A DNA stretch of 64,000 nucleotides. Origin: Prescottella defluvii (GTDB lineage Bacteria > Actinomycetota > Actinomycetes > Mycobacteriales > Mycobacteriaceae). Under the pieces are notes generated by a model. That model searched no databases. It saw nothing but the letters and a program-made list of their open reading frames with translations, and was not told the DNA's origin. The stretch lies in the NCBI RefSeq assembly GCF_000738775.1, contig NZ_JPOC01000026.1, positions 1 through 64,000 of the forward strand, given 5' to 3'. Below are positions 30,893-52,594 of the stretch, one piece after another (positions within the stretch are counted from its first letter, which is position 1; each line of letters starts with the position of its first letter). A program made the translations under genes and the position numbers.

Positions 30893-30982
30893 ATGACAGA
30901 TACCGGGGTGCGATTGGTGGCCAGGCGCCACGTCGACCTCAAGCGTGTCTGTAGCTGTTGTTGTCTGCCTTGCGGCGTGTAA
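30893..30982 (+). CDS. Cysteine-rich leader peptide (attenuator uORF) of the sir-cysHDN operon
   Basis: A 29-aa ORF with the body TGVRLVARRHVDLKRV followed by CSCCCLPCGV, five cysteines within seven residues. The RRHVDL block is the known signature of actinobacterial sulfur leader peptides. It lies 169 bp upstream of sir and probably starts with the first nucleotide of the mRNA. Leaderless poly-Cys ORFs are established in mycobacteria as cysteine-responsive attenuators: ribosomes stall on Cys codons when charged tRNA-Cys is scarce and downstream expression rises. No clear rho-independent hairpin was seen in 30983-31151, so the mechanism may differ (for example Rho or translational coupling). 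Confidence 0.8.
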   Translation: MTDTGVRLVARRHVDLKRVCSCCCLPCGV

Positions 30983-37720: not shown

Positions 37721-38491
37721 ATGGTGAGTGCCGCATCACTGCGCGGCAGATGGAGCCCCGAGGACGTAGCCCTGATCGCACGCCGGTTCGTCGACCAGGC
37801 CCGGTTCGTCGGCCGCATCCACGAGATCGCATCCCCACACGGGACGACCGACGAAGGTCGCGTCGACCTGCGTGGGGCGAAAGTAGCCCGCGGACATTCG
37901 CTCTCGATCAAGTACCTCACCCTGGAGCGACTCGACCTGAGCCACGCGCAGGGCGCGCTCCACCTGTTCGAGACCGAAGTGAGCGACAGCCTGTTCGACA
38001 AGATCTCCGCGTCGGGCAGCGTGCTCGACCGTCTCTTCGTTCGGTGCAGCTTCAGATCGGCGCGCCTGACGCGGACACGGATCGGACGGACATTGATCGA
38101 CTGCGACTTCACGAATGCCTCGATGCGCAAGCTCGCGCTCGGGGAGAACACCGTGTTCGAGCGGTGCACGTTCCACGGGACCGATCTGGCCGACGCGAAG
38201 CTCGTGGGCGGCCGTTTCGCCGAGTGCACATTCGCCGACACCACGTTCTCCGCGCTCACGACGTTCGACAGGTGCGACTTCAGGGGCACCCTGCCCGAGT
38301 TCGGATCCGCACGCCGCATCCGCTGCACCCATGACGGCACTCCCCTGCCCGACAGCTGGCCGGGACAGGCCGACGCCGAGGAGCTCGAACGCGACTATCT
38401 CGACCGCTACGCGCGCGCGGTGTTGGCGGAGACCGCCGAGACTGTGGAGACCGCCGAGACTGTGGACACAATGCCACTCGACCCCGAGTGA
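37721..38491 (+). CDS. Pentapeptide-repeat protein
   Basis: A 256-aa protein whose central part (about 50-205) is built of degenerate pentapeptide repeats: VDLRGAKVA, LERLDLSHAQGALHLFE, LIDCDFTNASMRKL, RCTFHGTDLADAKLVGGRFAECTFADTTF. These form a right-handed quadrilateral beta-helix; relatives can mimic DNA and protect gyrase, but most have unknown roles. The C-terminal tail is acidic and includes an ETAETV-ETAETV duplication coded by an 18-bp tandem repeat. ATG at 37721 is chosen (AGGGAG upstream); GTG at 37700 is an alternative. Confidence 0.85.
   Translation: MVSAASLRGRWSPEDVALIARRFVDQARFVGRIHEIASPHGTTDEGRVDLRGAKVARGHSLSIKYLTLERLDLSHAQGALHLFETEVSDSLFDKISASGSVLDRLFVRCSFRSARLTRTRIGRTLIDCDFTNASMRKLALGENTVFERCTFHGTDLADAKLVGGRFAECTFADTTFSALTTFDRCDFRGTLPEFGSARRIRCTHDGTPLPDSWPGQADAEELERDYLDRYARAVLAETAETVETAETVDTMPLDPE
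38429..38464 (+). repeat. 18-bp tandem repeat, two exact copies
   Basis: GAGACCGCCGAGACTGTG occurs twice in direct succession near the 3' end of the pentapeptide-repeat gene, adding two ETAETV units to the protein tail. Confidence 0.95.
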
Positions 38492-38510
38492 CGGCGTCGA
38501 GTGTGGCGTT
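38470..38510 (+). terminator. Imperfect hairpin spanning the stop of the pentapeptide-repeat gene
   Basis: AATGCCACTCGAC pairs with GTCGAGTGTGGCGTT (a two-base bulge and one G-T pair), with an alternative inner stem CACTCG-ACCC-CGAGTG. The TGA stop lies within it. A terminator role is inferred. Confidence 0.5.
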
Positions 38511-38573
38511 CCCGGCCTGCTGCAGCACCCGGGTGGCGGGCCTGCCGATCGCCGTGGCGTTCGGCACAGTCGC

Positions 38574-38604
38574 TTTACCTCGAGTGAACTTCAGGTTCTA
38601 GCGT
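38574..38604 (+). promoter_or_regulatory. MerR/SoxR-type promoter of the flavin reductase gene
   Basis: A -35 TTTACC (38574-38579) and a -10 TAGCGT (38599-38604) are separated by 19 bp instead of 17. The spacer holds the dyad ACCTCGAGTG/AACTTCAGGT (7 of 10 pairs). Long-spacer promoters with a central dyad starting ACCT are the hallmark of activation by MerR-family regulators, including SoxR. Confidence 0.6.
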
Positions 38605-38643
38605 TGTAGCCGACACCCCGATGCACCTGACGGAGGATCCCCG

Positions 38644-39159
38644 TTGACGACCGCCACCCCGATATCCCAGCTCAGCGGCGACTTTCGTCGAGCATTTCGC
38701 GGTCATCCCGCCGGTGTCGCCATCATCACCGCCCGGGGCAGCGAGGGCCCCGTCGGCCTCACGTCGTCGTCGGTGGTGTCGATCGCGGCGGACCCGCCGA
38801 TCCTCGGGTTCTCGCTGCAATCCGATCGGGGCTCGGCCGCCGTCATCGGATCCGCCACCAGCTTCCTCGTGCACCTGCTCACCGCCGAGAACGCATCCCT
38901 GGCAAGACTGTTCGCCACGCCCGGTACCCGACGCTTCGGACCGGACATGGCCTGGTCGACTCTGGCGACCGGCGAACCCCTGATCCACGGAACCGGGCAC
39001 GTGCTGCGCTGCACGCCCCTGTCGGGGGTCCAGGCCGGGCCGGCGACCGTCCTGACCGCCGCGGTCGAGGACGTCCTCGAACCCGAGAACCTCGGGGCGC
39101 CGCTCGTCTACCAGGACCGGAAATACCACTGCGTGAGCCCGTGGACGGTCCTCACCTGA
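38644..39159 (+). CDS. Flavin reductase (HpaC-like, FMN-binding split barrel)
   Basis: A 171-aa NAD(P)H:flavin oxidoreductase. The split-barrel signature includes FRRAFRGHPAGVAIITARGSEGPVGLTSSSVVSIAADPP (here read as two adjacent blocks), FLVHLLTAEN, and the C-terminal PLVYQDRKYH. Such enzymes provide free reduced FMN/FAD to two-component monooxygenases; no oxygenase partner is adjacent. TTG at 38644 has GGAGG 7 nt upstream, a good context. A MerR-type promoter lies about 40 bp upstream, hinting at redox- or ligand-induced expression. Confidence 0.88.
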   Translation: MTTATPISQLSGDFRRAFRGHPAGVAIITARGSEGPVGLTSSSVVSIAADPPILGFSLQSDRGSAAVIGSATSFLVHLLTAENASLARLFATPGTRRFGPDMAWSTLATGEPLIHGTGHVLRCTPLSGVQAGPATVLTAAVEDVLEPENLGAPLVYQDRKYHCVSPWTVLT

Positions 39160-39229
39160 TCGGTCGTTCGTTCGGTCGGCCCGACGATTGTCGCCCGACA
39201 ACCTCTACCGCAGATTTATTCTCGTGGGC

Positions 39230-40540
39230 ATGCAGCCAACTGTCCGCCGAACCCGCCGAACCCGTCGGCGGGTCGGTGCCACGGCGCTCACCCTCGCCAC
39301 TACGGCATCGCTCGCACTCACGGCTGCCACCACGCCGGCACCCGCCGCGATTCTGCAGCTGCCGAATCCGGGATCCGCGATCGGCGATGGCTGGGAACTC
39401 CAGACCGTCATGCGCACCGCGGCGACGGTCGTCGGCCACAGCGCACCGGGTATGTCCATCGCGATAGTCAAGCCCGACCCAGACGAGCCCGGCGAGTCGA
39501 TCACCACGACCTACCATTTCGGTCTGGCGGACAAGGAGAACCAACGCAAGGTCGGCCCGCAGACGCAGTTCGAGATCGCCTCGGAGACCAAGACGTTCAC
39601 CGCGGCACTGCTCGCGAAGAGGATCCGTGCCGGGCAGTCCGACTTGGCCGATCTCGCGCAGGACTACGAGCAGGACGTCACGTTCCCCACGATGGGCGGA
39701 GCAGCCATCACGCTCGGAGACCTCGTCACTCACCGGTCCGGATTGACCGACGATCCCGGCAACCTGCATGCGGGCTGCCCGGGCAGCGACCCCGGCTGCC
39801 CGGACGCAATGGCTCGGTACAACCGGACACTCCTGAGGGAGGGGATCGAGGCACCGGGCGCACTCGCGAACGCCCCGGGATCGACCTGGCTCTACTCGGA
39901 TTTCGGTTTCGGCACGGTCGGCACCCTCATGGCGGACGCCTTCGCACCGGGTAGTCCCGAACCGCAGTTCGCCGACGTCGTCGAGGCGGAACTGACCGGG
40001 CCCCTCGGCATGACATCGACCGTCCTCGAGACGCGAACACCGGAGTTGGCTCAGCCGTACAGGAACGGAGCCGAAGCCGATCTCTGGAACAACACCGGAG
40101 CCCTCGCGGGAGGGGGTGGACTGATCAGCACAGTGTCCGACATGGCGAGATGGGTCGCCGGCACCCTCGGCTACGGCGACAGCCCGCTGGTACCCGTGCT
40201 GCAGTCGATGCTCGAACCCATCGCGGGCGTGGCGCCGACGAATCAGCCCGACATGACGATGGGCATGGCATGGCAGCTGTATCCCGCACAGAACGGGATC
40301 ACCCGCCCCTACGCCTTCAAGAACGGCGCCTCGAACGGCAGCACCAGCGCCACCTACCTCCTGCCGTCGGAAGGCTGGGGAGTCACCGTCCTGGCCAACG
40401 GCCTGCACACCCGCGACGACGGCCAGGCCGATCCGACGACCGATCAGGCAGCTTTCGCCCTGATGCGGGAACTCGCTCCGCTGTTCCCGACCCCCGAAAC
40501 GGGCAGCGGTTCGTCCCCGTTCGGTTCCGTCGGGTCCTGA
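39230..40540 (+). CDS. Secreted serine hydrolase (class C beta-lactamase fold)
   Basis: A 436-aa protein with an Arg-rich N-terminus and Sec-type signal segment (ALTLATTASLALTAATTPAPA). The twin RR pairs near residues 6-13 hint at, but do not establish, Tat export. The nucleophile motif SETK is S118-K121, YSDFGFG supplies the second-motif Tyr, and VTHRSGLTDD precedes it. Relatives are D-aminopeptidases, esterases and beta-lactamase-like proteins; the substrate is unknown. It is unrelated in position to the serine hydrolase at 2240-3061. It is convergent with cysA across a strong terminator. Confidence 0.85.
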   Translation: MQPTVRRTRRTRRRVGATALTLATTASLALTAATTPAPAAILQLPNPGSAIGDGWELQTVMRTAATVVGHSAPGMSIAIVKPDPDEPGESITTTYHFGLADKENQRKVGPQTQFEIASETKTFTAALLAKRIRAGQSDLADLAQDYEQDVTFPTMGGAAITLGDLVTHRSGLTDDPGNLHAGCPGSDPGCPDAMARYNRTLLREGIEAPGALANAPGSTWLYSDFGFGTVGTLMADAFAPGSPEPQFADVVEAELTGPLGMTSTVLETRTPELAQPYRNGAEADLWNNTGALAGGGGLISTVSDMARWVAGTLGYGDSPLVPVLQSMLEPIAGVAPTNQPDMTMGMAWQLYPAQNGITRPYAFKNGASNGSTSATYLLPSEGWGVTVLANGLHTRDDGQADPTTDQAAFALMRELAPLFPTPETGSGSSPFGSVGS

Positions 40541-40550
40541 ACCGCAGCGG

Positions 40551-40592
40551 ACGAGGAGGGCCCGGCCCCGAGAGGAACCGGGCCCGCCTCGT
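40551..40592. terminator. Bidirectional terminator between the serine hydrolase and cysA
   Basis: Long stem ACGAGG-a-GGGCCCGG / CCGGGCCC-g-CCTCGT around a 12-nt loop, directly between the two convergent stops. Confidence 0.85.
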
Positions 40593-40600
40593 GCGCGGTG

Positions 40601-41548
40601 TCAGGCGATGATGTGACTCGGTCGCACGTACACCGTCTCGCCCTCGCGCAGACCCAGGGTCTCGGCGTCGCGGCGGGTGATCTGCGCCGACAGTTCCTGT
40701 GCGCCGGTCTTGGGCTGCAACTCCACACGGACCTCGAAACCGAGGTGCACCACGCGCGAGACCGTCGCTGCGAACGACTGCGGGATCTGGGTGCGCTCGA
40801 GCCGCAGATCGTGCGGGCGCACCAACTGTCCGTTGAGCCGCGCAACCGGCCCGAGGAACGACATCACGAAGTCGTTGGCCGGGGTGTCGTACAACTCCTG
40901 CGGCGTCCCGACCTGCTCGATCCGCCCCTTGTTGAGCACCGCGATCCGGTCGGCGACGTCGAGCGCCTCCTCCTGGTCGTGGGTGACCAGCACCGTGGTC
41001 ACGTGCACCTCGTCGTGCAACCGCCGCAACCACGTCCGCAGATCGTCGCGCACCTTCGCGTCGAGCGCACCGAACGGCTCGTCCAGCAGCAGTACCTGTG
41101 GATCCACGGCCAGGGCGCGGGCCAGGGCCATGCGCTGTCGCTGCCCACCCGACAGCTGGGCCGGGTAGCGGTGCTGGAAGCCGTCGAGTCCGACGATCGC
41201 GAGCAGGTCGTCGACCTTCCTGGCGATCTCGGCCTTGGGGCGCTTGCGGATCGTGAGGCCGAACGCGACGTTGTCGCGCACCGTCATGTGCTTGAACGCC
41301 GCGTAGTGCTGGAACACGAAACCGATGTCGCGCTTCTGCGGCGGGACCCCGGTGACGTCCTTCCCCGCGATCGTGATGGTGCCCGAGTCCGGCTGCTCGA
41401 GACCGGCGATCGACCGCAGCAGCGTCGACTTGCCCGAGCCACTGGGCCCGAGCAGTGCGGTGAGCGAGCCCGACGGGATGTCGAGGGTGACGTCGTCGAG
41501 CGCGACGAAGTCGCCGTAGTTCTTGCGTGCCCCGGTCACAGTGATCAT
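40601..41548 (-). CDS. cysA: Sulfate/thiosulfate ABC transporter ATP-binding protein CysA
   Basis: A 315-aa ATPase of the sulfate importer. Walker [10 protein letters not shown] is at residues 34-42, the signature is [15 protein letters not shown], Walker B is [11 protein letters not shown], and the H-loop is VTHD. A C-terminal TOBE-like regulatory part follows ([19 protein letters not shown]). ATG 41548 overlaps the cysW stop (ATGA). It is the last gene of the subI-cysT-cysW-cysA operon. Confidence 0.96.
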
Positions 41549-42351
41549 GTCGTGCTCCTCTTACGGTCGAGCAGGGTCATCAGCAGGAGTGTCACCACGG
41601 CGATCGACATCAGCAGTGTCGCCGCGGCGTAGGCCCCGAAGGTGTTGTGGTCGTCGATGTAGCGGGAGTGCACGAGCAGGGTCAGCGTCTGCGACTGGCC
41701 GGGAATGCCCGACGAGACCATGATGACGGCACCGAACTCGCCGAGAGCGCGGGCGACGGTGAGGACGATGCCGTACGTCAGGCCCCAGCGGATCGCCGGA
41801 AGCGTGATCCGGGTGAACGTCTGCCACTTGGACGCCCCGAGCGTGGCCGCGGCCTGCTCCTGCTCGTCCCCGATCTCGTGCAGCACCGGTTCCACCTCGC
41901 GCACCACGAACGGCAGCGTCACGAAGATCGTGGCGATCACCATGCCCGGCAACCCGAAGATCACCTTGAAGCCGAGAGATTCGACGCCGCCGAACCACCC
42001 GCCCGCACCCCACAGCAGGATCAGCGAGACGCCGACGACGATGGGTGACACCGCGAACGGGAGATCCACGACGGACTGCAGCAGCCCGCGGCCGGGAAAA
42101 CGACCCCGCACCAAGGCGAGTGCGGTGATGATGCCGAAGGCGACGTTGATCGGCACGACGATCGCGACGATCAGTAGCGACAAGTTCAGCGCCGAGATCG
42201 CGGCCGGGGTGCTGATCGCGTGGTAGAACGCGACGAACCCGTGTTCGAAGGTGCGGTAGAGGATCACGCCGATCGGCACGATCAGGAGCACGAACAGGTA
42301 GCCGAGGACGATGGTGCGGAGACTGATCCGCGCCCAGGGGGAGATCTTCAC
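41545..42351 (-). CDS. cysW: Sulfate ABC transporter permease CysW
   Basis: A 268-aa inner-membrane permease with about six helices. The EAA loop that contacts the ATPase reads [25 protein letters not shown]. The N-terminus and [14 protein letters not shown] are typical of CysW. GTG 42351 overlaps the cysT stop (GTGA), and its own stop overlaps cysA. Confidence 0.95.
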
Positions 42352-43232
42352 TGTGCCTGCTCCTCTCGGCGCAGATTGCGCGCGGCGAAGATGCGCAGCA
42401 CGAACAACGTCGCGAACGCGATCGCCAGCAACGCCACCGACACCGCGGCCGCGCTGACGGGACGGTCGATCTCGATCTGCTGCTGGATGTACTGCGAGGC
42501 CACCTGGGTCTCGCGCGGGATGTTGCCACCGATCAGCACCACCGAGCCGTACTCACCGATCGCCCGGGCGAACGCGAGTCCGGCACCGCTGATGATCGCC
42601 GGCGTGAGTATCGGCAGCACCACCCGACGGAAGATCGTCCAGTTGCTCGCACCCAGTGACGCCGCGGCCTGCTCCACCTCACGGTCGGCCTCCATCAGCA
42701 CCGGCTGCACCGACCGGACCACGAACGGCAACGTGACGAACGCGAGCGCCATGATCAGCCCCGGCTGAGTCGCGTTGAGGTGCACGTCGATCGGACTCTG
42801 CGGCCCGTACAGCGACAGCAACACGATGCTGGCGACGATCGTCGGCAACGCGAACGGAAGGTCGATGAGGGAGCCGACGATCCGCTTGCCCGGGAACTCG
42901 TCCCGCACCAGCACCCACGCGATCATCGTGCCCATCACCACGTTGATCAGGGCGACGATCACCGACACCCCGATCGTCACGCGCAACGCTGCCAGCGCGC
43001 CGGGCGCGGTGACCGCGTCCCAGAACCCGGACCATCCGTCCTCGAACGACGTCACCGTCAGCGCCGCCAGCGGCAGCAACACGATGACGCTGAGCCACAA
43101 CGCCGCGATACCGATCCCCAACGGGCCGACGGCGCCGGTGACGGCGAACCGGCGCCGGAAGCGCCCCTTCGGTTTCCGTGGTGGCGGCGTCTGCGCGGTC
43201 GGTTGCGGCGCCTGAGTCGTCTCTGTGGTCAT
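42348..43232 (-). CDS. cysT: Sulfate ABC transporter permease CysT
   Basis: A 294-aa permease, partner of CysW in the membrane pore. A Pro/Gln-rich cytoplasmic N-terminus of about 35 residues precedes the helices. The EAA loop is EVEQAAASLGASNWTIFRRVVLPIL, and FARAIGEYGSVVLIGGNIP is a family hallmark. ATG 43232 shares one base with the subI stop (TGATG), so the genes are tightly coupled; the frame open to 43415 is inside subI. Confidence 0.95.
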   Translation of the reverse strand: MTTETTQAPQPTAQTPPPRKPKGRFRRRFAVTGAVGPLGIGIAALWLSVIVLLPLAALTVTSFEDGWSGFWDAVTAPGALAALRVTIGVSVIVALINVVMGTMIAWVLVRDEFPGKRIVGSLIDLPFALPTIVASIVLLSLYGPQSPIDVHLNATQPGLIMALAFVTLPFVVRSVQPVLMEADREVEQAAASLGASNWTIFRRVVLPILTPAIISGAGLAFARAIGEYGSVVLIGGNIPRETQVASQYIQQQIEIDRPVSAAAVSVALLAIAFATLFVLRIFAARNLRREEQAQ

Positions 43233-44263
43233 CACTTGGTCGCGTTCTCGTAGATGGCGGCGATCCGGCCCGAGTCCTGCTCGAACAGATCCTTGTCGAC
43301 GGTGTCCCAGCCCCCGAGGTCGGCGACGGTCCACAGCTTCTGCGGCTCCGGGAAATCGGCGGCGTACTCGGCCAGGACGGTCGGGTCGACGGGCCGGAAG
43401 CCTGCCTCCGCCCACTGCCGCTGCGCTTCGAGGGTGTAGAGGAATTCACGGAACGTGACCGCGGTGGACGCGTTCGGTCCGGTCGAGACCACCGCCACCG
43501 GATTCTCGACCTTGAGAGTCTCCGGCGGGGTCACGTGCTCCACCGGATCCCCCTTGCGTTCGATGAACAGAGCCTCGTTCTCGTAGCTCAGCAACACGTC
43601 ACCGGTGCCCTGCAGGAACATCTCGGTGGCCTCGCGGCCCGACTTCGGTTGCACCGTCACATGCTCACCGATCAGCTTGCCGAGGTAATCGAGACCGGCC
43701 TGCGGATTCTCCCCGCCGTCACTCGCGGCCGCGTAGGGCGCCAACAGGTTCCACTTGGCCGAACCGGAACTGAACGGGTTGGGGGTCACCACCTCGACGC
43801 CGGGCCGGAGCAGGTCGTCCCAGTCGCGAATGTCCTTCGGATTGCCCTCCCGGACCACGAGCGTGACCACCGAACCGAACGGAATACCGTTGTAGGCGTT
43901 GCTGTTCCAGCTACTGTCGACCAGACCGGCGTCGACGAGCCGGGTGATCTCCGGCTCGACGGAGAAGCTGACCAGGTCCGCCTGGGCCCCGTCTTTGACC
44001 TTCCGCGACTGGTCACCCGAGGCCCCGTACGACGGGTTGAATCTCACACCTTCGCCCTCGCCGGTCAGGGCGAACGCCGCAGTCACCTTGTCGTAGCCGG
44101 GCTTCGGGACCCCGTACGCGAACAGATTGATCGTGCCGCCACTGCCGTCCGCACCGATGTCGCCTCCGCCCATCACATCGCTCGAGCCGCCGGCGCACCC
44201 GGCGAGAACGACAGCTCCGACCGCGACGAGCGCAGCCAGGACCGGGCGGGACCGATGCTTCAT
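43232..44263 (-). CDS. subI: Sulfate-binding lipoprotein SubI, copy 1
   Basis: A 343-aa periplasmic-type binding protein. Residues 1-22 form a lipoprotein signal with lipobox LAGC (C23), so it would be membrane-anchored. The binding domain begins TINLFAYGVPKPGYDK, a typical sulfate-binding start, with SYGASGDQSRKV and TPNPFSSGSAKWNLLAPYA for the anion pocket. AGGAAGG lies upstream of the ATG. It is the first gene of the importer operon. Upstream are a hairpin and a 29-codon leader ORF. It is highly similar along its whole length to copy 2 at 45023-46054. Confidence 0.95.
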   Translation of the reverse strand: MKHRSRPVLAALVAVGAVVLAGCAGGSSDVMGGGDIGADGSGGTINLFAYGVPKPGYDKVTAAFALTGEGEGVRFNPSYGASGDQSRKVKDGAQADLVSFSVEPEITRLVDAGLVDSSWNSNAYNGIPFGSVVTLVVREGNPKDIRDWDDLLRPGVEVVTPNPFSSGSAKWNLLAPYAAASDGGENPQAGLDYLGKLIGEHVTVQPKSGREATEMFLQGTGDVLLSYENEALFIERKGDPVEHVTPPETLKVENPVAVVSTGPNASTAVTFREFLYTLEAQRQWAEAGFRPVDPTVLAEYAADFPEPQKLWTVADLGGWDTVDKDLFEQDSGRIAAIYENATK

Positions 44264-44414
44264 ACGGATCTACCTTCCTACAGCGGCGGCGGATGCAGAA
44301 GAGCCCGCGCGCCGGAAAAACCCCGACCGGACGGTCGGTCGGTTCAAATGGGACCTGAATGCGGGGAGGGGTGTTCGCGGCGCACGTCGCCCCCGAGCGG
44401 GGCGGAAGGAAAGA

Positions 44415-44435
44415 GCGCGTTCGGACCGAACGCGC
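44415..44435 (-). terminator. Attenuator-type hairpin between leader ORF 1 and subI copy 1
   Basis: Perfect 10-bp arms GCGCGTTCGG / CCGAACGCGC around one base. On the minus strand it is followed by TCTTTCCTTCC, a partial U-tract. It lies 33 bp after the leader stop and about 150 bp before subI, the position expected of a transcription attenuator. Confidence 0.65.
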
Positions 44436-44467
44436 GTGTCACGACAGAGCGAACACCGAGACTGAGA

Positions 44468-44557
44468 TCAACAACAGTCGATGTCGGCGACTGCGAGGCG
44501 GCCGACAGCGATCAACGCCAGTTCATGGCGGACCTGGTGCGCGGCGACTACAGACAC
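44468..44557 (-). CDS. Leaderless leader peptide 1 upstream of subI copy 1
   Basis: A 29-aa ORF starting GTG, with body VRHELALIAVGRLAVAD and ending IDCC-stop (two tandem TGT codons). A -10 hexamer TAAAGT (44565-44570) lies exactly 7 nt before the GTG, implying a leaderless transcript. The same length, start codon, -10 spacing and central sequence recur upstream of the second subI copy, which strongly supports that it is translated. The terminal Cys-Cys and the hairpin downstream suggest cysteine-dependent attenuation of the importer (inference). Confidence 0.7.
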   Translation of the reverse strand: MSVVAAHQVRHELALIAVGRLAVADIDCC

Positions 44558-44564
44558 GCGGCAG

Positions 44565-44570
44565 ACTTTA
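44565..44570 (-). promoter_or_regulatory. -10 element of leader 1 / subI-cysTWA transcript
   Basis: TAAAGT on the minus strand within TCTGCTAAAGTCTGC, 7 nt before the leader GTG. The equivalent DNA upstream of leader 2 reads TCTGCTACGTTCTGC, so the element and its flanks are conserved. Confidence 0.55.
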
Positions 44571-44627
44571 GCAGAGCACGGAACCGACGTCCGAATGACG
44601 CGATTCGCGCACGAACGTCAGCGGGGG

Positions 44628-44705
44628 TCAGCGGGTGAAGTACCAGGCGATGACGACCAGGACGAGCAGCGCGATCAGCGCCAGGGTCACGCGTGAGCGC
44701 GGCAT
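44628..44705 (-). CDS. 25-aa single-helix membrane peptide
   Basis: MPRSRVTLALIALLVLVV followed by IAWYFTR: one hydrophobic helix with basic ends. Its ATG shares a base with the stop of the upstream 74-aa membrane gene (TGATG), so translation is coupled. M. tuberculosis also has small membrane genes beside subI (Rv2401/Rv2401A). Function unknown. Confidence 0.65.
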   Translation of the reverse strand: MPRSRVTLALIALLVLVVIAWYFTR

Positions 44706-44929
44706 CAGGAACCCTCCACCTTCGTGTGTGCGTCCACGCGGACGTCGGAATCAGCCGGCTCGGCCCGACCGAACGCGGCGAACAGCGCGGACAACACGCG
44801 GTCGAGCACCCAGGCGATCCCGAAACAGGCAGGAATCATCACCACGATCACCAGGACGACCTGGGGAATGAACGGCAGGCCGGCGACCCACAGTTCTGCA
44901 CCGTCCCACCAGCTCGCGAGTTGATCCAC
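44705..44929 (-). CDS. 74-aa membrane protein
   Basis: A small protein with a Trp-rich N-terminus (DQLASWWDGAELWVAG), one long or re-entrant hydrophobic region (PFIPQVVLVIVVMIPACFGIAWVL) and an acidic tail. GTG at 44929 has GGGTGG just upstream. Coupled to the 25-aa peptide gene. It lies between the two subI copies in the same orientation. Not recognised; a transporter-accessory role is only a guess from location. Confidence 0.65.
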   Translation of the reverse strand: MDQLASWWDGAELWVAGLPFIPQVVLVIVVMIPACFGIAWVLDRVLSALFAAFGRAEPADSDVRVDAHTKVEGS

Positions 44930-45022
44930 GCGACCACCCTAGCCGCTGACGAAACGGGGACCGAACACGGCGCAGCCGTCGCCATGTCCGGTCCCCGTGG
45001 CCGCGCGGTGTCCGCGCGACCC

Positions 45023-46054
45023 CTACTGCGTCGCGTTCTCGTAGATGACGGCGATGCTGCCCGTCCCCTGCTTGAACAGTTCCGCGTCGACGGCCGGCCA
45101 GCCACCGAGATCGGCGACGGTCCACAACTGCTGCGGCTGCGGGAAGTCTGCCGCGAACTCCGCTGCGACAGCCGGATCGACGGGCCGGAAGCCGGCCTCC
45201 GCCCACAGTCTCTGCGCCTCGGAGGTGTACAGGTAGTCGCGGAATGCGATGGCCTGGGGGGCGTTCGGGCTGTTCGAGATCACCGCCACCGGATTCTCGA
45301 TCTTGAAGGTGGTCGGCGGCGTCACGTGCTCCACCGGATCGCCGTTCCGTTCGGTGAACAGTGCCTCGTTCTCGTAGCTCAGCAACACGTCGCCGGTGCC
45401 CTGCAGGAACATCTCGGTGGCCTCGCGGCCCGACTTCGGCTGCACCTTCACGTGCTCACCGATCAGCCTGCCGAGGTAGTCGAGACCGGCCTGTGGATTC
45501 TTGCCGCCGTCACTCTTGGCGGCATAGGGGGCCAACAGGTTCCACTTCGCCGAGCCGGAACTGAACGGGTTGGGGGTCACCACCTCGACACCAGGCCGGA
45601 GCAGGTCGTCCCAGTCCCGGATGTTCTCCGGATTGCCCTCCCGGACCACGAGCGTGACCACCGAACCGAACGGAATCCCGTTGTAGGCGTCGTTGTTCCA
45701 GTTCTCGTCGACCAGGCCGGCATCGACGAGCCGGGTGATGTCCGGCTCGACCGAGAAGTTCACGAAGTCGGCCTGCGCGCCGTCCTTGACCTTCCGCGAC
45801 TGGTCCCCCGAGGCCCCGTAGGACGCGTTGAATCTCACACCCTTGCCCTCCTCGGTCTCGGAGAAGGCGGCGGTGACCTTGTCGAATCCCGGCTTGGGGA
45901 CCGCGTAGGCGAACAGATTGATCGTGCCGCCGCTGCCGTCGGCGCCGGCGTCGGCGCCGCCGACGACGTCACTCGAGCCGCCGCTGCACGCGGTCAGCGC
46001 GACGGCGCCGATCACGGCGAAGGCGGTCAGGAACGAACGGGAACGATGCTTCAT
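45023..46054 (-). CDS. Sulfate-binding lipoprotein SubI, copy 2
   Basis: A 343-aa paralog of the neighbouring SubI, of identical length and with long identical blocks (DAGLVD, YNGIPFGSVVTLVVREGNP, VEVVTPNPFSSGSAKW, REATEMFLQGTGDVLLSYE). The lipobox is LTAC with C23. AGGAAG precedes ATG 46054; the frame open to 46702 is spurious. It has its own leader ORF and hairpin but no permease genes, so it probably feeds the same CysTWA permease, perhaps with different affinity or oxyanion preference. A local duplication that included the leader is the simplest origin. Confidence 0.93.
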   Translation of the reverse strand: MKHRSRSFLTAFAVIGAVALTACSGGSSDVVGGADAGADGSGGTINLFAYAVPKPGFDKVTAAFSETEEGKGVRFNASYGASGDQSRKVKDGAQADFVNFSVEPDITRLVDAGLVDENWNNDAYNGIPFGSVVTLVVREGNPENIRDWDDLLRPGVEVVTPNPFSSGSAKWNLLAPYAAKSDGGKNPQAGLDYLGRLIGEHVKVQPKSGREATEMFLQGTGDVLLSYENEALFTERNGDPVEHVTPPTTFKIENPVAVISNSPNAPQAIAFRDYLYTSEAQRLWAEAGFRPVDPAVAAEFAADFPQPQQLWTVADLGGWPAVDAELFKQGTGSIAVIYENATQ

Positions 46055-46105
46055 GGGATGACTTCCTATCGGGCTCACGGGTGCTGCGGATGACGGACGA
46101 AACCG

Positions 46106-46123
46106 GCCCGGCGCAGGCCGGGC
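46106..46123 (-). terminator. Attenuator-type hairpin between leader ORF 2 and subI copy 2
   Basis: Seven-bp arms GCCCGGC / GCCGGGC with a 4-nt loop, 11 bp after the leader 2 stop and about 50 bp before the subI copy 2 start; followed on the minus strand by a short TTT. Weaker than the hairpin of copy 1. Confidence 0.5.
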
Positions 46124-46134
46124 GGAGGATCGCG

Positions 46135-46224
46135 TCAGCGACAGTGAACGTCCGCAACTGCAAGCCCGCCGACGGCAATCAACGCCAGTTCGTGGCGGAC
46201 GCGATGAGGGGTGGCAACAGGCAC
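46135..46224 (-). CDS. Leaderless leader peptide 2 upstream of subI copy 2
   Basis: A 29-aa ORF starting GTG with the body VRHELALIAVGGLAVAD and ending VHCR-stop. It aligns without gaps to leader 1 (identical VRHELALIAVG core, identical length). A TACGTT hexamer at 46232-46237 lies 7 nt before the GTG, the same spacing as in leader 1. Only one Cys codon is left at the end, so sensing may differ from leader 1. Confidence 0.65.
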   Translation of the reverse strand: MPVATPHRVRHELALIAVGGLAVADVHCR

Positions 46225-46231
46225 GTCGCAG

Positions 46232-46237
46232 AACGTA
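46232..46237 (-). promoter_or_regulatory. -10 element of leader 2 / subI copy 2 transcript
   Basis: TACGTT on the minus strand, 7 nt before the leader GTG, in the conserved frame TCTGCTA...TTCTGC shared with the leader 1 promoter. Confidence 0.5.
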
Positions 46238-46327
46238 GCAGACGTCGGCGCGGATGCCGAGGGATGAAATCAGGGCAGCTCTCGCGAACGGTGGACGCGG
46301 ACGGACGGCCGGGTCGATGATGAGGTG

Positions 46328-48298
46328 ATGACGTCTCAGGCCGAACAGCCCGTCACCACGCCCATCGCGGATTCCGACGAGGTGGCACCGAGGCGCCGCA
46401 GCGCCTTCCCCCCGATCGACGACTACGCCTTCCTGTCCGATTGCGAGACGAACTGCCTGGTCGCACGCAACGGCGCCGTCGAGTGGATGTGCGTCCCGCG
46501 CCCCGATTCCCCCAGCGTGTTCGGCGCGATACTCGACCGCAGCGCCGGCCACTTCCGGATCGGACCGTACGGCCAGAACGTGCCGTCCGCGCGCCGCTAC
46601 CTTCCGGGCGGGCTGATCCTGGAGACCACGTGGCAGACCCAGACCGGGTGGCTGATCGTGCGCGACGCACTCGTGATGGGCCCGTGGCACGCCAACGAAC
46701 AACGCTCACCCACGCGCCGGCGGACACCGTCCGACTGGGACGCCGAACACATCCTGCTGCGGACCGTCAAGTGCGTCAGCGGCACCGTCGAGGTGGAGAT
46801 GAGTTGCGAGCCGGCGTTCGACTACCACCGCGCCCCGGCGCACTGGGAGTACACCGGCAAGGTCTACGAGGAGGCCACCGCGACGTGCCGCGGCGCCTCC
46901 CACGGCGAGCATCCGACACTCCGGCTGACGTCGAACCTGCGTCTCGGGGTCGAGGGCCGCGAGGCCCGGGCCCGCTCCCGCATGGTGGAGGGCGACAACG
47001 CTTTCGTCGCACTGTCCTGGTCGGAGATGCAGGCCCCCAAGAGCTTCGCCGAAGCGGCCGACAAGATGTGGCAGACCACTGAGTGCTGGCGGCAGTGGGT
47101 GACGATCGGACGCTTCCCCGACCATCCGTGGCGGAGCCACCTGCAGAGCAGTGCACTGACCCTCAAGGGGCTGACCTACGCACCGACCGGCGCGCTGCTC
47201 GCCGCACCCACCACGTCACTTCCGGAAACACCTGGCGGCGAACGTAACTGGGACTACCGGTACGCCTGGGTGCGGGACTCGACCTTCGCGCTCTGGGGTC
47301 TGTACACCCTCGGCCTCGACCGCGAGGCCAACGACTTCTTCTCGTTCATCTTCGACTCGGCCCAGTCCGACAACGGCGACCCGGCGCCGCTGCAGGTGAT
47401 GTACGGCGTCGGCGGCGAGCACACCCTCGTCGAGGAGGAACTGGGGCACCTGAAGGGCTACGACGGGGCCCTGCCCGTGCGGATCGGCAACGGCGCCTAC
47501 AACCAGAACCAGCACGACATCTGGGGCACCCTGCTCGACTCGGTGTACCTGCACGTCCGGTCCCGCGACCAGGTCCCCGAGACGTTGTGGCCGCTGCTCC
47601 TACGGCAGATCGAGGAGGTCGTCGAGCACTGGCGCGAACCGGACCGCGGGATCTGGGAGGTGCGCGGCGAACCGCAGCACTTCACGTCGTCGAAGATCAT
47701 GTGCTGGGTGGCGCTCGACCGCGGCGCCAAACTCGCCACCCTGCACGGCGAGAAGGCCTTCGCGGCGCAGTGGACCGAGATCGCCGACGAGGTCAAGGCC
47801 GACATCCTCGAGCACGGTGTCGACGACCGCGGGGTGTTCACCCAGCGCTACGGTCATCCGTCCCTGGACGCCTCCCTGCTGCTGGCGCCGCTGTTGCGGT
47901 TCCTGCCCGCCGACGACCACCGGGTCAAGGCGACCGTGCTGGCGATCGCCGACGAACTCACCGAGGACGGACTCGTGCTCCGCTATCGGGTCGAATCCAC
48001 CGACGACGGGCTGTCCGGGAAGGAGGGTACGTTCACGATCTGCTCGTTCTGGCTGGTGTCCGCGCTCGTCGAGATCGGGGAGGTGAAGCGCGCCCAGGAC
48101 CTGTGCGAACGACTCCTCGCGTTCGCGAGCCCCCTCAAGCTCTACGGCGAGGAGATCGACCCTCGGACGGGCCGGCACCTGGGCAACTTCCCCCAGGCCT
48201 TCACCCACCTGGCACTGATCAACGCCGTCGTGCACGTCATCCGCGCCGAGGAGTCCGGCCACACCGGAACGTTCCAGCCGGCACACGGGCACTCCTGA
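46328..48298 (+). CDS. Glycoside hydrolase family 15 enzyme (trehalase/glucoamylase type), Rv2402-like
   Basis: A 656-aa cytoplasmic GH15 protein. The N-terminal beta-sandwich starts YAFLSDCETNCLVARNGAVEWMCVPRPDSPSVFG, read here as adjacent blocks. The catalytic (alpha/alpha)6 barrel includes NWDYRYAWVRDSTFALWGLY, the hallmark of this group, and later EVRGEPQHFTSSKIMCWVALDRG with the acid Glu. Mycobacterial relatives at this locus (Rv2402) are trehalases, hydrolysing trehalose to glucose, so that is the best guess. ATG 46328 or GTG 46325 may be used. It is divergent from subI copy 2. Confidence 0.9.
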   Translation: MTSQAEQPVTTPIADSDEVAPRRRSAFPPIDDYAFLSDCETNCLVARNGAVEWMCVPRPDSPSVFGAILDRSAGHFRIGPYGQNVPSARRYLPGGLILETTWQTQTGWLIVRDALVMGPWHANEQRSPTRRRTPSDWDAEHILLRTVKCVSGTVEVEMSCEPAFDYHRAPAHWEYTGKVYEEATATCRGASHGEHPTLRLTSNLRLGVEGREARARSRMVEGDNAFVALSWSEMQAPKSFAEAADKMWQTTECWRQWVTIGRFPDHPWRSHLQSSALTLKGLTYAPTGALLAAPTTSLPETPGGERNWDYRYAWVRDSTFALWGLYTLGLDREANDFFSFIFDSAQSDNGDPAPLQVMYGVGGEHTLVEEELGHLKGYDGALPVRIGNGAYNQNQHDIWGTLLDSVYLHVRSRDQVPETLWPLLLRQIEEVVEHWREPDRGIWEVRGEPQHFTSSKIMCWVALDRGAKLATLHGEKAFAAQWTEIADEVKADILEHGVDDRGVFTQRYGHPSLDASLLLAPLLRFLPADDHRVKATVLAIADELTEDGLVLRYRVESTDDGLSGKEGTFTICSFWLVSALVEIGEVKRAQDLCERLLAFASPLKLYGEEIDPRTGRHLGNFPQAFTHLALINAVVHVIRAEESGHTGTFQPAHGHS

Positions 48299-48358
48299 CG
48301 GTCGCGCGGACCGCCGCGAATCGCCGCGAACTCACGTGGCCTGTGCCACGATCGACAC

Positions 48359-48733
48359 ATGTTGGATCACTTGGGAATTCAATGTGCCGACCCCGCGGCG
48401 AGCGCGGCGTTCTACGACAGAGCGCTCGCCCCGCTCGGCGGGGTCCGGATCATGGAGTACGGGCAGGTCATCGGTTACGGTGTGCCACCGCACCCCGACT
48501 TCTGGATCAGCCCGCTGGTGCCCGCCGACGCCGGCTTCCGGGAGAATCACATCGCGTTCGTCGCCGACACCCGAGCCGCGGTCGACGCGTTCTTCGCCGC
48601 CGCAGTCGAGGCCGGCGCCGAGGTGCTGCACGCGCCGCGCGAGTGGCCGGAGTACCACCCCGGCTACTACGGCGCATTCGTCCGCGACCCCGACGGCAAC
48701 AACGTCGAGGCGGTCTGTCACCACCCCGAGTAG
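48359..48733 (+). CDS. VOC-superfamily (glyoxalase/dioxygenase-like) protein
   Basis: A 124-aa vicinal-oxygen-chelate protein, start MLDHLGIQCADPAASAAFYDRAL and end FVRDPDGNNVEAVCHHPE. Possible metal ligands are H4, H64 (ENHIAFVA) and E117 (NNVEAV), the usual two His and one Glu. One VOC domain, so it would work as a dimer. Substrate unknown. Confidence 0.88.
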   Translation: MLDHLGIQCADPAASAAFYDRALAPLGGVRIMEYGQVIGYGVPPHPDFWISPLVPADAGFRENHIAFVADTRAAVDAFFAAAVEAGAEVLHAPREWPEYHPGYYGAFVRDPDGNNVEAVCHHPE

Positions 48734-48741
48734 TTCGGTCG

Positions 48742-49674
48742 TCAGTAGGTCCGGCGGAGCAACCGCTCCGCGTCGGCCGCGATGGTGCGCACGACGTCGC
48801 CGGCCGGACGCTCCGACGTGACGAGACCCGCGGCCTCGCCGGCATACACCACGCCGACGCCGGTGTCCGCGGGATCGTATGCAGCCGAGAGGGTTTCGTT
48901 GTCCGCGCCGCGTCCGTGCCACTTCGCGGTGTAGTCGTTGGCGAGGGCGCGACCGCCCCAGCGGGCCGGCCACGGCTGATCGCGGGCCTGATCGAAGATC
49001 GACGTGTAGACGGTGTCGGCGCTGCCGGCCTCGATCAGCTTCTGCCGCGCGTACTCCGGGCCGATCGTCTCGGGGCTCGCGAGCAGGGCGGTCCCGATCA
49101 TGGCACCCTCCGCTCCCGCGGCGATGACGGCCGCCAGTCCGCGACCGGTGCCGATGCCACCCGCTGCCAGCACCGGCAGGCTCGTCGCGTCGAGCACCTC
49201 CTGCAGCAGCGGCAGCGTGCCGATCCGTCCGGTGTGCCCGCCGGCCTCGCCGCCCTGCGCAATCACGAAGTCGACACCCGCCCGCTCGACGACGCGAAGA
49301 TCCTCGACGGTGTTGACCTGTGAGACGGCCAGCGCGCCGGCCGCGTGCACCCGTTCGACGTACGGCGCCGGATCGCCGAACGACAGCGACACCACCCGGG
49401 GCCTCTCGGCGAGCGCCGCGTCGAGCAACGAGTCGTCGACGTCGAGCGACCACGTCATCAGGCCGATGCCGAGCAGCCCACCGCCGATCTCGCGGGCGAT
49501 CGCCGACTCCGCCGCGATCCATTCCGGTGTCGCGTAGCGCGCCGCGCCGAGCAGACCGAGTCCGCCCGCCCGAGTGACCTCACCGGCCAGTTCGCCGCCG
49601 GCGCGGCCACCCATCGGGGCGCCGAAGATCGGCACCTCCAACCCGAGTTCGCGGGTCAACCAGGTGCCGATCAT
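48742..49674 (-). CDS. Nitronate monooxygenase / FMN-dependent dioxygenase family
   Basis: A 310-aa FMN-dependent TIM barrel of the 2-nitropropane dioxygenase group. It opens PIFGAPMGGRAGGELAGEV, with the conserved catalytic-His region AQGGEAGGHTGR and phosphate-binding AAGGIGTGRGLAAVIAAGAEG. Such enzymes detoxify nitronates such as propionate 3-nitronate; a related enoyl reductase function cannot be excluded. It starts 12 bp after the lepA stop, so cotranscription with lepA is likely. Confidence 0.9.
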   Translation of the reverse strand: MIGTWLTRELGLEVPIFGAPMGGRAGGELAGEVTRAGGLGLLGAARYATPEWIAAESAIAREIGGGLLGIGLMTWSLDVDDSLLDAALAERPRVVSLSFGDPAPYVERVHAAGALAVSQVNTVEDLRVVERAGVDFVIAQGGEAGGHTGRIGTLPLLQEVLDATSLPVLAAGGIGTGRGLAAVIAAGAEGAMIGTALLASPETIGPEYARQKLIEAGSADTVYTSIFDQARDQPWPARWGGRALANDYTAKWHGRGADNETLSAAYDPADTGVGVVYAGEAAGLVTSERPAGDVVRTIAADAERLLRRTY

Positions 49675-49686
49675 CGTGTGAACCTC

Positions 49687-51549
<1,863 letters not shown>

Positions 51550-51629
51550 GCCCTATTCCCTCGTCTCACTCGCGCACCTGTACCGGCCCGGTCCGGCATC
51601 GACTGCCTCCCGCGCCCTCCCATCATCCC

Positions 51630-51647
51630 TTGAACACCGGTGTGCGT
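51630..51647. promoter_or_regulatory. Dyad resembling the TetR operator, lepA/SGNH intergenic region
   Basis: TTGAACACCGGTGTGCGT matches 15 of 18 bases of the perfect operator at 23421-23438, including the central ACACCGGTGT. It lies about 80 bp upstream of lepA. Functional meaning uncertain. Confidence 0.25.
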
Positions 51648-51673
51648 ACACATCCAGGGTCGCCGGGGCCGCT

Positions 51674-52594
51674 CTATCGGGCGCCGATCGGGTCCGCGAC
51701 GATGTCCGCGACCACCCGATCGGCCACCGCGGACATCCCGGCGTGGGTGAAGTGCAGTCGCTGCGCGTCAGATTCGGAGAACATGCCCTCGAACCAGCGG
51801 TCCGCGGGGGCGGCGCACGCGTCGTGCCCGCCGGCGAGCGCCGGGGTCGCGATGTCGACGACGCGGGCCCCGTGCCGGGCGGCCACCTCCGCGAACGCCC
51901 GGTTGTAGTCGGCGAAGTAGCTCGCGTACCAGGCCGCGTCGGCGTCCGAGAACGGGATGTTGGGCCAGCAGCCTCGCGGGCCGATGGTGCCGCCCTGCCC
52001 GATCACGTAGATCCGGGCCTGCGGGGCGCGCGCGGTCAGGGCCACCAGCACCCGGTCCAGCCCGACGGCCGCCCGCTCGATGCCCGAGCCGGCGACGTAC
52101 CGGGTGAGCGGATCGTTGCGGCAACCGCGGTCGATGCCCGGCGCCGGCGCCACGCACAGGATCCCGAGCGGCAGGTTGTTCGAATCGTTGCCGCCCACCG
52201 ACAGCGTGACGAGGTCGGTGTCGGGGCGGACCGAGTCGACCTGCACCGGATTCCGGCCCGGGAGGATCTGCGGGGTGTCGAGAATGTTCTCGACCCGGGC
52301 CGCACTGCAGGAGACGTCGGTGAACTCGGCCACCTCGAGCGCCGCGGCGATCTTGCCGGCGTAGTTGACGTACGACCGCGAGCAGTCGTCCGGGTACGAG
52401 GGCTGCAGCCGCGGCCCGGACGCGCGCGAGTCGCCGAGCGCGACGAACACCAGGTCCTCACCGGGGGCCGGTGCCGATTCCGCCGCCGGTGCCGGCACGA
52501 CCGGCGTGCCCGCGTGGGCGGCGCCTCCACCGGCCAGCGAAACCGCCAGAACCGCCGTCGTCAGCCACACGGCCCCGCGTAGTGCTGCGCCCAC
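51674..52594 (-). CDS. Secreted SGNH/GDSL-family esterase
   Basis: A 306-aa exported hydrolase. The signal peptide runs to about residue 30 (LTTAVLAVSLAGGGAAHA, cleavage before GTP). Block I is FVALGDSRASG with the nucleophile Ser, block III is VGGNDSNN, and block V LHFTHAG supplies the catalytic His. Several Cys pairs (DDCSRSY, DVSCSAA, ILCVAP, DRGCRND) suggest disulfides outside the cell. GTG 52594 has GGGGGAGGG 7 nt upstream; the frame extends to 52648. Likely a lipase or carbohydrate esterase; substrate unknown. Confidence 0.88.
   Translation of the reverse strand: MGAALRGAVWLTTAVLAVSLAGGGAAHAGTPVVPAPAAESAPAPGEDLVFVALGDSRASGPRLQPSYPDDCSRSYVNYAGKIAAALEVAEFTDVSCSAARVENILDTPQILPGRNPVQVDSVRPDTDLVTLSVGGNDSNNLPLGILCVAPAPGIDRGCRNDPLTRYVAGSGIERAAVGLDRVLVALTARAPQARIYVIGQGGTIGPRGCWPNIPFSDADAAWYASYFADYNRAFAEVAARHGARVVDIATPALAGGHDACAAPADRWFEGMFSESDAQRLHFTHAGMSAVADRVVADIVADPIGAR

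Follow-up and report, generated by a model that had tools for sequence, protein, structure and literature searches.

In a stretch of 64,000 nucleotides from Prescottella defluvii (contig NZ_JPOC01000026.1, positions 1 to 64,000; hereafter the window), two consecutive genes for sulfate-binding proteins, subI copy A and then subI copy B, lie on the minus strand, and a 29-codon open reading frame (ORF) starting with GTG precedes each of them. Judging from sequence comparison, each ORF is probably a leader of the Ms4533A family that is translated from a leaderless mRNA, senses cysteine and would act as a ribosome-stall attenuator of the subI gene behind it. Both exceed the curated cut-off (31 bits) of the NCBIfam profile NF042937, "Ms4533A family Cys-rich leader peptide", with E-values of 1.4e-11 (leader B) and 1.8e-14 (leader A). 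By this score, the pair belongs to an already described family, which the initial annotation of the locus had not noticed. That annotation had described two 29-codon minus-strand GTG ORFs ending in DCC and HCR, with TAAAGT and TACGTT 7 nt upstream, and all of these elements are present:

46232..46237, minus strand: -10 hexamer TACGTT of leader A, 7 nt before the GTG, with TGC upstream
46135..46224, minus strand: leader ORF A, MPVATPHRVRHELALIAVGGLAVADVHCR, GTG start, ends HCR, 53.6 bits against NF042937
44565..44570, minus strand: -10 hexamer TAAAGT of leader B, 7 nt before the GTG, with TGC upstream (motif in 81 of 82 loci)
44468..44557, minus strand: leader ORF B, MSVVAAHQVRHELALIAVGRLAVADIDCC, GTG start, ends DCC, 44.4 bits against NF042937

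Like the family, the two peptides end in cysteine codons or nearly so, and their 29 residues compare with the 30 positions of the profile; they differ from it in that two copies here accompany two subI genes, and in that copy A has one terminal cysteine and no run. The leaders are identical at 20 of 29 residues and 68 of 90 bases. VRHELALIAVG, initially given as the common core, is present in both but is too short, the real block being VRHELALIAVGxLAVAD. The back-translated core pattern matches the genome twice, exactly at the two leaders, and its reversed control not at all. Chance ORFs are ruled out by the curated-family matches, the genome-wide uniqueness of the core pattern and the amino-acid-level selection described below.

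Distribution of the leader family

The family occurs in all 14 genomes of the genus, 11 of which carry two copies, and in none of the 14 control genomes. Among 401 genomes sampled from the taxonomic family, 208 match NF042937 at E <= 0.001 and 194 exceed the cut-off; at least 12 have two matches (the 11 two-copy genomes of the genus and G330), and further second copies are possible as at most 19 candidates were scored per genome. The order-level sample gave 38 matches in 298 genomes at E <= 0.01, with 29 genomes over the cut-off, and the plasmids searched gave no match. Our collection comprises 82 leader loci, 54 from the genus and order searches and 28 from named loci of subI relatives found via a purpose-built hidden Markov model; 72 are distinct in DNA. 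Nine weak places in the order sample and many family-sample matches without a locus stand outside the collection. For the cysteine codon, 24 further loci were checked (20 distinct among themselves, not compared against the 72), bringing the family loci examined to 106. A position before a sulfate-binding protein gene, a trait drawn from the loci examined, is shared by both leaders.

The SubI protein of copy B is 85-88% identical to its four closest records, from R. hoagii, P. equi, Rhodococcus sp. OK519 and P. subtropica, and the genome belongs to the Prescottella (Rhodococcus equi) group. On a subI tree built by a quick method, with many weak forks, the 11 copy-B proteins form one clade (approximate likelihood-ratio support, SH-aLRT, 95), and copy A is not resolved. 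A known Rfam cis-regulatory element was considered and rejected: there was no match at the gathering score in 38000-52000, and the four sub-threshold matches in 44200-46300 all miss both leaders.

Promoter geometry

A TGN-TANNNT motif ends 6-7 nt before the ATG or GTG in 81 of the 82 leader loci (the exception is L058), the start codons having been picked partly by this motif. Such motif-guided choice does not force the length, and 75 of the 82 leaders have 29 or 30 codons. Upstream of the GTG, copies A and B agree mainly in TCTGCTA, the extended -10 element, and in TCTGC. Of the 849 ORFs of 12-45 codons in the window, just the two leaders start with an ATG or GTG that TANNNT precedes by 5-8 nt; about 1.9 such ORFs are expected by chance, as estimated from the 72 TANNNT sites of the window, so the promoter alone proves nothing. 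It becomes persuasive because it coincides with two homologous leaders and is conserved. Within 1-64000, -10-like hexamers are rare and conspicuous, with TANNNT at only 35 and 37 sites on the two strands.

The initial annotation had argued for translation from leaderless mRNAs from protein-level conservation and promoter spacing. Leaderless geometry at 81 of 82 loci, selection on the amino acids and the position before both subI genes lend weight to this argument, and the most likely reading of both ORFs is a translated leader on a leaderless mRNA, of a kind already known.

Selection on the peptide and an internal hairpin

The initial annotation had also called for a search of related genomes and a test for synonymous bias. 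The peptide frame proved conserved (14 of 14 genomes of the genus), and substitutions are biased towards synonymous ones: among the 25 distinct leaders of the genus, in alignment codon numbering, codons 24-34 (IAVGxLAVADI) have a synonymous rate (pS) of 0.508 and a nonsynonymous rate (pN) of 0.065, a ratio of 0.129. The ratio is 0.029 for the eight codons 24-27 and 30-33, and 0.798 for the N-terminal part of the leader. Codons 16-21 (RHELAL) have a pN of 0 and a pS of only 0.177, approximately one third of that adjoining. In the second half of the leader these rates point to constraint on the amino acids, and in the first half to constraint on the bases as well. Seven residues, A20, A25, V26, V31, A32, D33 and C36, are invariant in all 72 distinct leaders and include the motif V-A-D-x-x-C.

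The base-level constraint on RHELAL fits a hairpin, P0, coded within this block. P0 in the genus reads CGCCA-loop-TGGCG, with synonymous variation confined to the loop codons CAY and YTG:

46183..46197, minus strand: hairpin P0 in leader A, CGCCA-CGAAC-TGGCG
44516..44530, minus strand: hairpin P0 in leader B, CGCCA-TGAAC-TGGCG

Over the 72 distinct leaders, the outer pair of P0 flips between lineages (C-G in 51, G-C in 14, T-A in 1, unpaired in 6), and the inner four pairs are intact in 71 or 72 and hardly vary, so they are little informative. The mycobacterial-type group keeps the outer pair in 22 of 27 leaders, matched by none of 10,000 partner shuffles, a test that ignores relatedness, as do all our pair tests (P0 and the downstream stems P1 and P2). 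P0 may serve as a pause hairpin that keeps the polymerase and the leaderless ribosome in step.

The terminal cysteine codon

The terminal cysteine at alignment column 36, codon 28 in the window, is present in all 72 distinct leaders:

46141..46143, minus strand: codon 28 of leader A, invariant TGT (Cys), followed by codon 29, CGC (Arg)
44474..44476, minus strand: codon 28 of leader B, invariant TGT (Cys)

All 72 distinct leaders encode this cysteine as TGT, as do the 24 further loci. TGT accounts for one of the 35 cysteine codons in 12 ORFs of the window that were treated as genes; among the 80 subI ORFs behind leaders it accounts for 10 of 95. The best control comes from the same peptides: the internal cysteine at column 28 is TGC in 12 of 14 cases and TGT in two. 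Where codon 29 encodes cysteine in the genus, TGT (11) and TGC (8) are both used. Leaders of the Ms4527A type use TGT for 49 of 70 cysteine codons (14 loci); a third type of Cys leader shows no overall preference (12 of 25, 10 loci), with TGT as its last cysteine codon in 10 of 10. We found no relevant publication on codon choice in Cys leaders or on cysteine leaders of Rhodococcus, most subscription papers being beyond the reach of the search.

Leader B carries two consecutive terminal cysteine codons (DCC) and leader A does not (HCR). The initial annotation had read this as loss of a terminal cysteine codon in its second copy, our leader A. The family-invariant codon 28 is kept; what holds of this reading is that the variable codon 29 encodes arginine rather than cysteine. 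Such a state is no peculiarity of this copy, an idea we rejected, as it recurs in Nocardia, across the subI tree and in many loci: the longest terminal run is a single cysteine in 34 of the 82, namely 6 of 11 copy-A loci, 26 of 30 loci from the Nocardia/Rhodococcus set and 2 of the remaining 27, and none of the 11 copy-B or three single-copy loci of the genus. All 23 leaders found in Nocardia have a single terminal cysteine (one further Nocardia locus, L085, yielded no leader), and those of N. farcinica and N. higoensis, which have one cysteine in the whole peptide, score 51.0 and 54.4 bits. The state changes at least seven times on a 79-row subI tree, three times among the 25 rows of the genus; the tree omits L061 and L117, where the downstream ORF was mis-called, and one identical row. 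This recurrence weakens the initial proposal that one cysteine codon fewer means a different sensing threshold. On the distribution of sequences, the arginine codon of copy A is a recurrent state that gives no evidence of a separate threshold.

The RNA between leader and subI

The distance from leader to subI is 204 nt for copy B and 80 nt for copy A, and the elements of the two untranslated regions (UTRs) and the genes behind them are as follows:

46103..46121, minus strand: GC-rich hairpin of copy A, CCGGCCTG-CGC-CGGGCCGG, 48 nt before the subI ATG
46062..46067, minus strand: Shine-Dalgarno (SD) sequence AGGAAG of subI copy A
45023..46054, minus strand: subI copy A, sulfate-binding protein
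44449..44457, minus strand: 5' arm of stem P1 (GGTGTTCGC), 11 nt past the stop of leader B
44370..44378, minus strand: 3' arm of stem P1 (GCGAACACC)
44323..44338, minus strand: hairpin P2 of copy B, CCGACCG-TC-CGGTCGG, followed by GGTTTTT, terminator-like
44273..44278, minus strand: SD sequence GGAAGG of subI copy B
43232..44263, minus strand: subI copy B, sulfate-binding protein

RNAalifold predicts P1 in the 22 long-UTR loci of the genus, its 5' arm beginning approximately 11 nt after the stop. Written out by hand as 10 pairs, P1 pairs in 85.5% of cells as against 27-51% when slid by 1-3 columns; four pairs are changed on both sides, which 4 of 500 shuffles equalled, and the pairs at its two ends are broken in 9 and 15 of the 22 loci. 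In 19 of the 22 (all but L018, L021 and L026) there is a GC-rich hairpin, P2, with its end 49-59 nt upstream of the subI ATG. Its covariation score of 0.309 on the shared alignment, where a few rows out of register were retained as mismatches, was equalled by none of 500 shuffles. The copy-A UTR is also short in genomes G012 (70 nt) and G010 (approximately 85 nt, the subI start of L025 being placed by eye); the GC-rich hairpin is found in all three short UTRs, and P1 was not found in those of this genome and G012. UTRs measure 184-249 nt in the long loci of the genus as against 114-149 nt in mycobacterial loci. A competing stem noted by eye, between GCCGA in the leader and TCGGY after its stop, was rejected, as an Ala codon breaks it in 5 of 22 aligned loci.

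Neighbouring genes and other cysteine leaders

The transporter genes follow subI copy B, and a further leader lies elsewhere in the window:

42348-43232, minus strand: cysT, after subI copy B
41545-42351, minus strand: cysW, after cysT
40601-41548, minus strand: cysA, after cysW
30893-30982, plus strand: Ms4527A-family leader, 29 codons, MTDTGVRLVARRHVDLKRVCSCCCLPCGV, 50.8 bits against NF042936 (cut-off 45)
31152-32867: sulfite/nitrite reductase-like gene behind this leader

Between subI copy A and leader B, two small membrane-like ORFs of 74 and 25 amino acids lie on the minus strand at 44628-44929, for which the NCBIfam scan gave no match. The leaders lie approximately 1.8 kb apart in certain genomes and approximately 1.5 kb apart in others, which suggests that some genomes lack these ORFs.

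The initial annotation had set the subI leaders apart from the RRHVDL-type leader before sir, and the latter indeed belongs to another family, Ms4527A. It resembles the subI leaders in its 29 codons, its Cys-rich end and its place before a sulfite/nitrite reductase-like gene; it differs in its RRHVDL core, its CSCCC tract and the hexamer 7 nt before its ATG, which is CACAAT and not TANNNT. Four of its five cysteine codons are TGT. The third type (RRHVDFALVCTCGCR, VCTSGC and similar) was seen in 10 of the 14 genomes of the genus (L133, at G000:C48:4164-4211, L132 and L134-L141), with TACAGT 6-7 nt before the GTG. Two of these leaders were scanned and fell below the cut-offs of the NCBIfam leader families; the gene downstream of L133 appears OsmC-like by eye.

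Discussion

The family assignment, promoter geometry, amino-acid selection, UGU codon, P0, P2 and P1 are features of the sequence itself. From these we infer that RNA polymerase would start at or beside the GTG, and that a ribosome would begin at the 5' end of the mRNA without an SD sequence, translate the leader peptide and wait at the UGU of codon 28 when charged Cys-tRNA is scarce. A waiting ribosome would alter the folding downstream (P1, P2 and the subI ribosome-binding site) in another way than a finishing one, the controlled step being either termination at P2 or access to the SD. Low cysteine would presumably lead to more sulfate-binding protein and, for copy B, to more of the whole transporter. 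Cysteine is a plausible signal by analogy, because related leaders of Mycobacterium smegmatis were reported as cysteine-responsive attenuators.

Several comparable systems have been described. The polycysteine attenuators of M. smegmatis (Canestrari et al., 2020) are, as our leaders most likely are, short leaderless ORFs with terminal cysteine codons before sulfur genes; they differ from most loci of the genus, where UTRs are longer and release of the ribosome-binding site is unsupported by folding. Their regulation has been termed translation attenuation (PMC13236596; likewise PMC9031893). Cys-rich upstream ORFs had been shown earlier before cysA2, Rv0485 and nirA (PMC4633059), and six ORFs of M. 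tuberculosis were predicted to be regulators by cysteine availability, based on conservation with short ORFs of M. smegmatis (PMC9094748). Ms4533A itself was presumably among the loci tested by Canestrari et al. (2020), as the family name points to M. smegmatis; a literature text search for that name found no paper. The leaderless amino-acid leaders of Streptomyces lividans share the geometry, often have unclear terminators and in some cases a single sensing codon, as in TrpL2 with its one Trp codon (PMC8079986); they respond to other amino acids with unrelated peptides, none of the eight reported being for cysteine. The ilvB1 attenuator of M. tuberculosis has regulatory codons in an upstream ORF and hairpins downstream as well (PMC13236596). 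It differs in that the sensing codons of our leaders come last, so that a stalled and a terminating ribosome differ by few bases.

Several observations weigh against our explanation or parts of it. Copy A has neither consecutive cysteine codons nor P1. In the hairpin block, synonymous changes are scarce in the genus and the Nocardia/Rhodococcus set but hardly so in the mycobacterial-type group, where the reduction is slight (pS 0.436 as against 0.579). Most P1 pairing comes from conserved letters, the partner-shuffled mean already reaching 83.6%; taken sequence by sequence, P1 lacks significance in most cases outside the genus and at several loci within it (L018, p 0.59; L030, 0.51; L023, 0.44). 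Judging from footprint size, a ribosome waiting at codon 28 would not quite reach P1, halting a few bases before it, so that P1 is no obvious switch. For P2, two of the five measures do not beat shuffling (234 of 500 for doubly changed pairs, 154 of 500 for pair types), the U-tract is poor in most tails, and 44200-46400 contains two terminator-like sites, both downstream of leader B, where 1.1 are expected. Folding energies of the whole UTRs are not unusual (z -1.25 and +0.39). When a stalled ribosome is masked in silico, the mean unpaired fraction of the SD moves from 0.289 to 0.279 at 10 copy-B loci and from 0.403 to 0.359 at 10 copy-A loci, so that it is not exposed; as a thermodynamic prediction, this lowers the claim of the same mechanism and not that of a cysteine leader.

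The mask bears directly on the view that the subI leaders are classical polycysteine translation attenuators as in M. smegmatis, copy A being a weaker version. In that prototype of the family, a stalled ribosome reportedly frees the downstream ribosome-binding site. The mask was scored at 76 of the 82 loci, the other six having no assigned start or SD; the mean over the 56 loci outside copies A and B rises from 0.278 to 0.295, and the SD is freed at single loci (L051, 0.04 to 0.54; L052, 0.10 to 0.44; L060, 0.06 to 0.48; also L074). With no average gain in the 20 copy-A and copy-B loci, and with UTRs longer than the mycobacterial ones, the predicted folds lend no support to an uncovering of the ribosome-binding site in the genus, and we find this view rather doubtful. 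Transcription attenuation, in which P2 would be an intrinsic terminator controlled by the position of the ribosome on the leader, is quite conceivable, if on balance still less than even. The constant place of the P2-type hairpin, its covariation and the GGTTTTT after the copy-B hairpin make termination plausible in Prescottella; the weak U-tracts of most copies, terminator-like sites near chance and the want of an identified antiterminator count against it. It is unlikely that copy A is a decaying duplicate with relaxed control. It does combine an 80-nt UTR and the SD AGGAAGT with a lack of P1 and a single cysteine, as do the other two short-UTR copy-A loci with respect to the cysteine; yet its peptide is as constrained as that of copy B (pN/pS 0.085 and 0.131 over codons 24-34), the -10 element, P0 and GC-rich hairpin are all retained, and one cysteine is normal in Nocardia too. 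An action of the peptide in trans as a small protein, which the strong constraint on its second half might suggest, is very improbable, as the invariant rare codon, the embedded hairpin and the constant place before subI point to action in cis.

The boldest reading is a special form of our explanation, a leaderless cysteine-sensing attenuator, and we advance it tentatively. Rather than counting cysteine codons, the leader might sense through a single one: the nascent AV-x4-VAD-x-x would prime arrest at one UGU, P0 would synchronise the polymerase and the leaderless ribosome, and additional cysteines would be embellishments of particular lineages. The family-wide constraints on UGU, VAD and P0 favour such a peptide-assisted sensor. 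V31, A32, D33 and C36 never change, against a background of synonymous variation in the same stretch (pS 0.441 and pN 0.013 within the genus); a single terminal cysteine occurs at 34 of 82 loci, and the one-cysteine peptides of N. farcinica and N. higoensis score over the family cut-off. However, the arrest is a proposal, and the conserved peptide may have another role; moreover, all 21 mycobacterial leaders (group g2) among the loci collected keep two to four consecutive cysteines, and copy B keeps consecutive cysteines in 11 of 11.

The invariant and otherwise disfavoured TGT, the seven invariant residues, the flip of the outer P0 pair and the hairpin recurring 49-59 nt before subI are possibly new. 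The tandem pair extends a cysteine-sensing leader family known from mycobacteria to another genus, and the comparison shows which parts of the leader evolution keeps fixed. An invariant UGU behind an invariant peptide leads to a claim that can be tested directly: the response would be set by the nascent chain rather than by how many cysteine codons there are. If this is true, searches for cysteine runs would miss the one-cysteine members of the family, and the tandem copies of Prescottella would be a natural experiment with a one-cysteine and a two-cysteine version in one cell.

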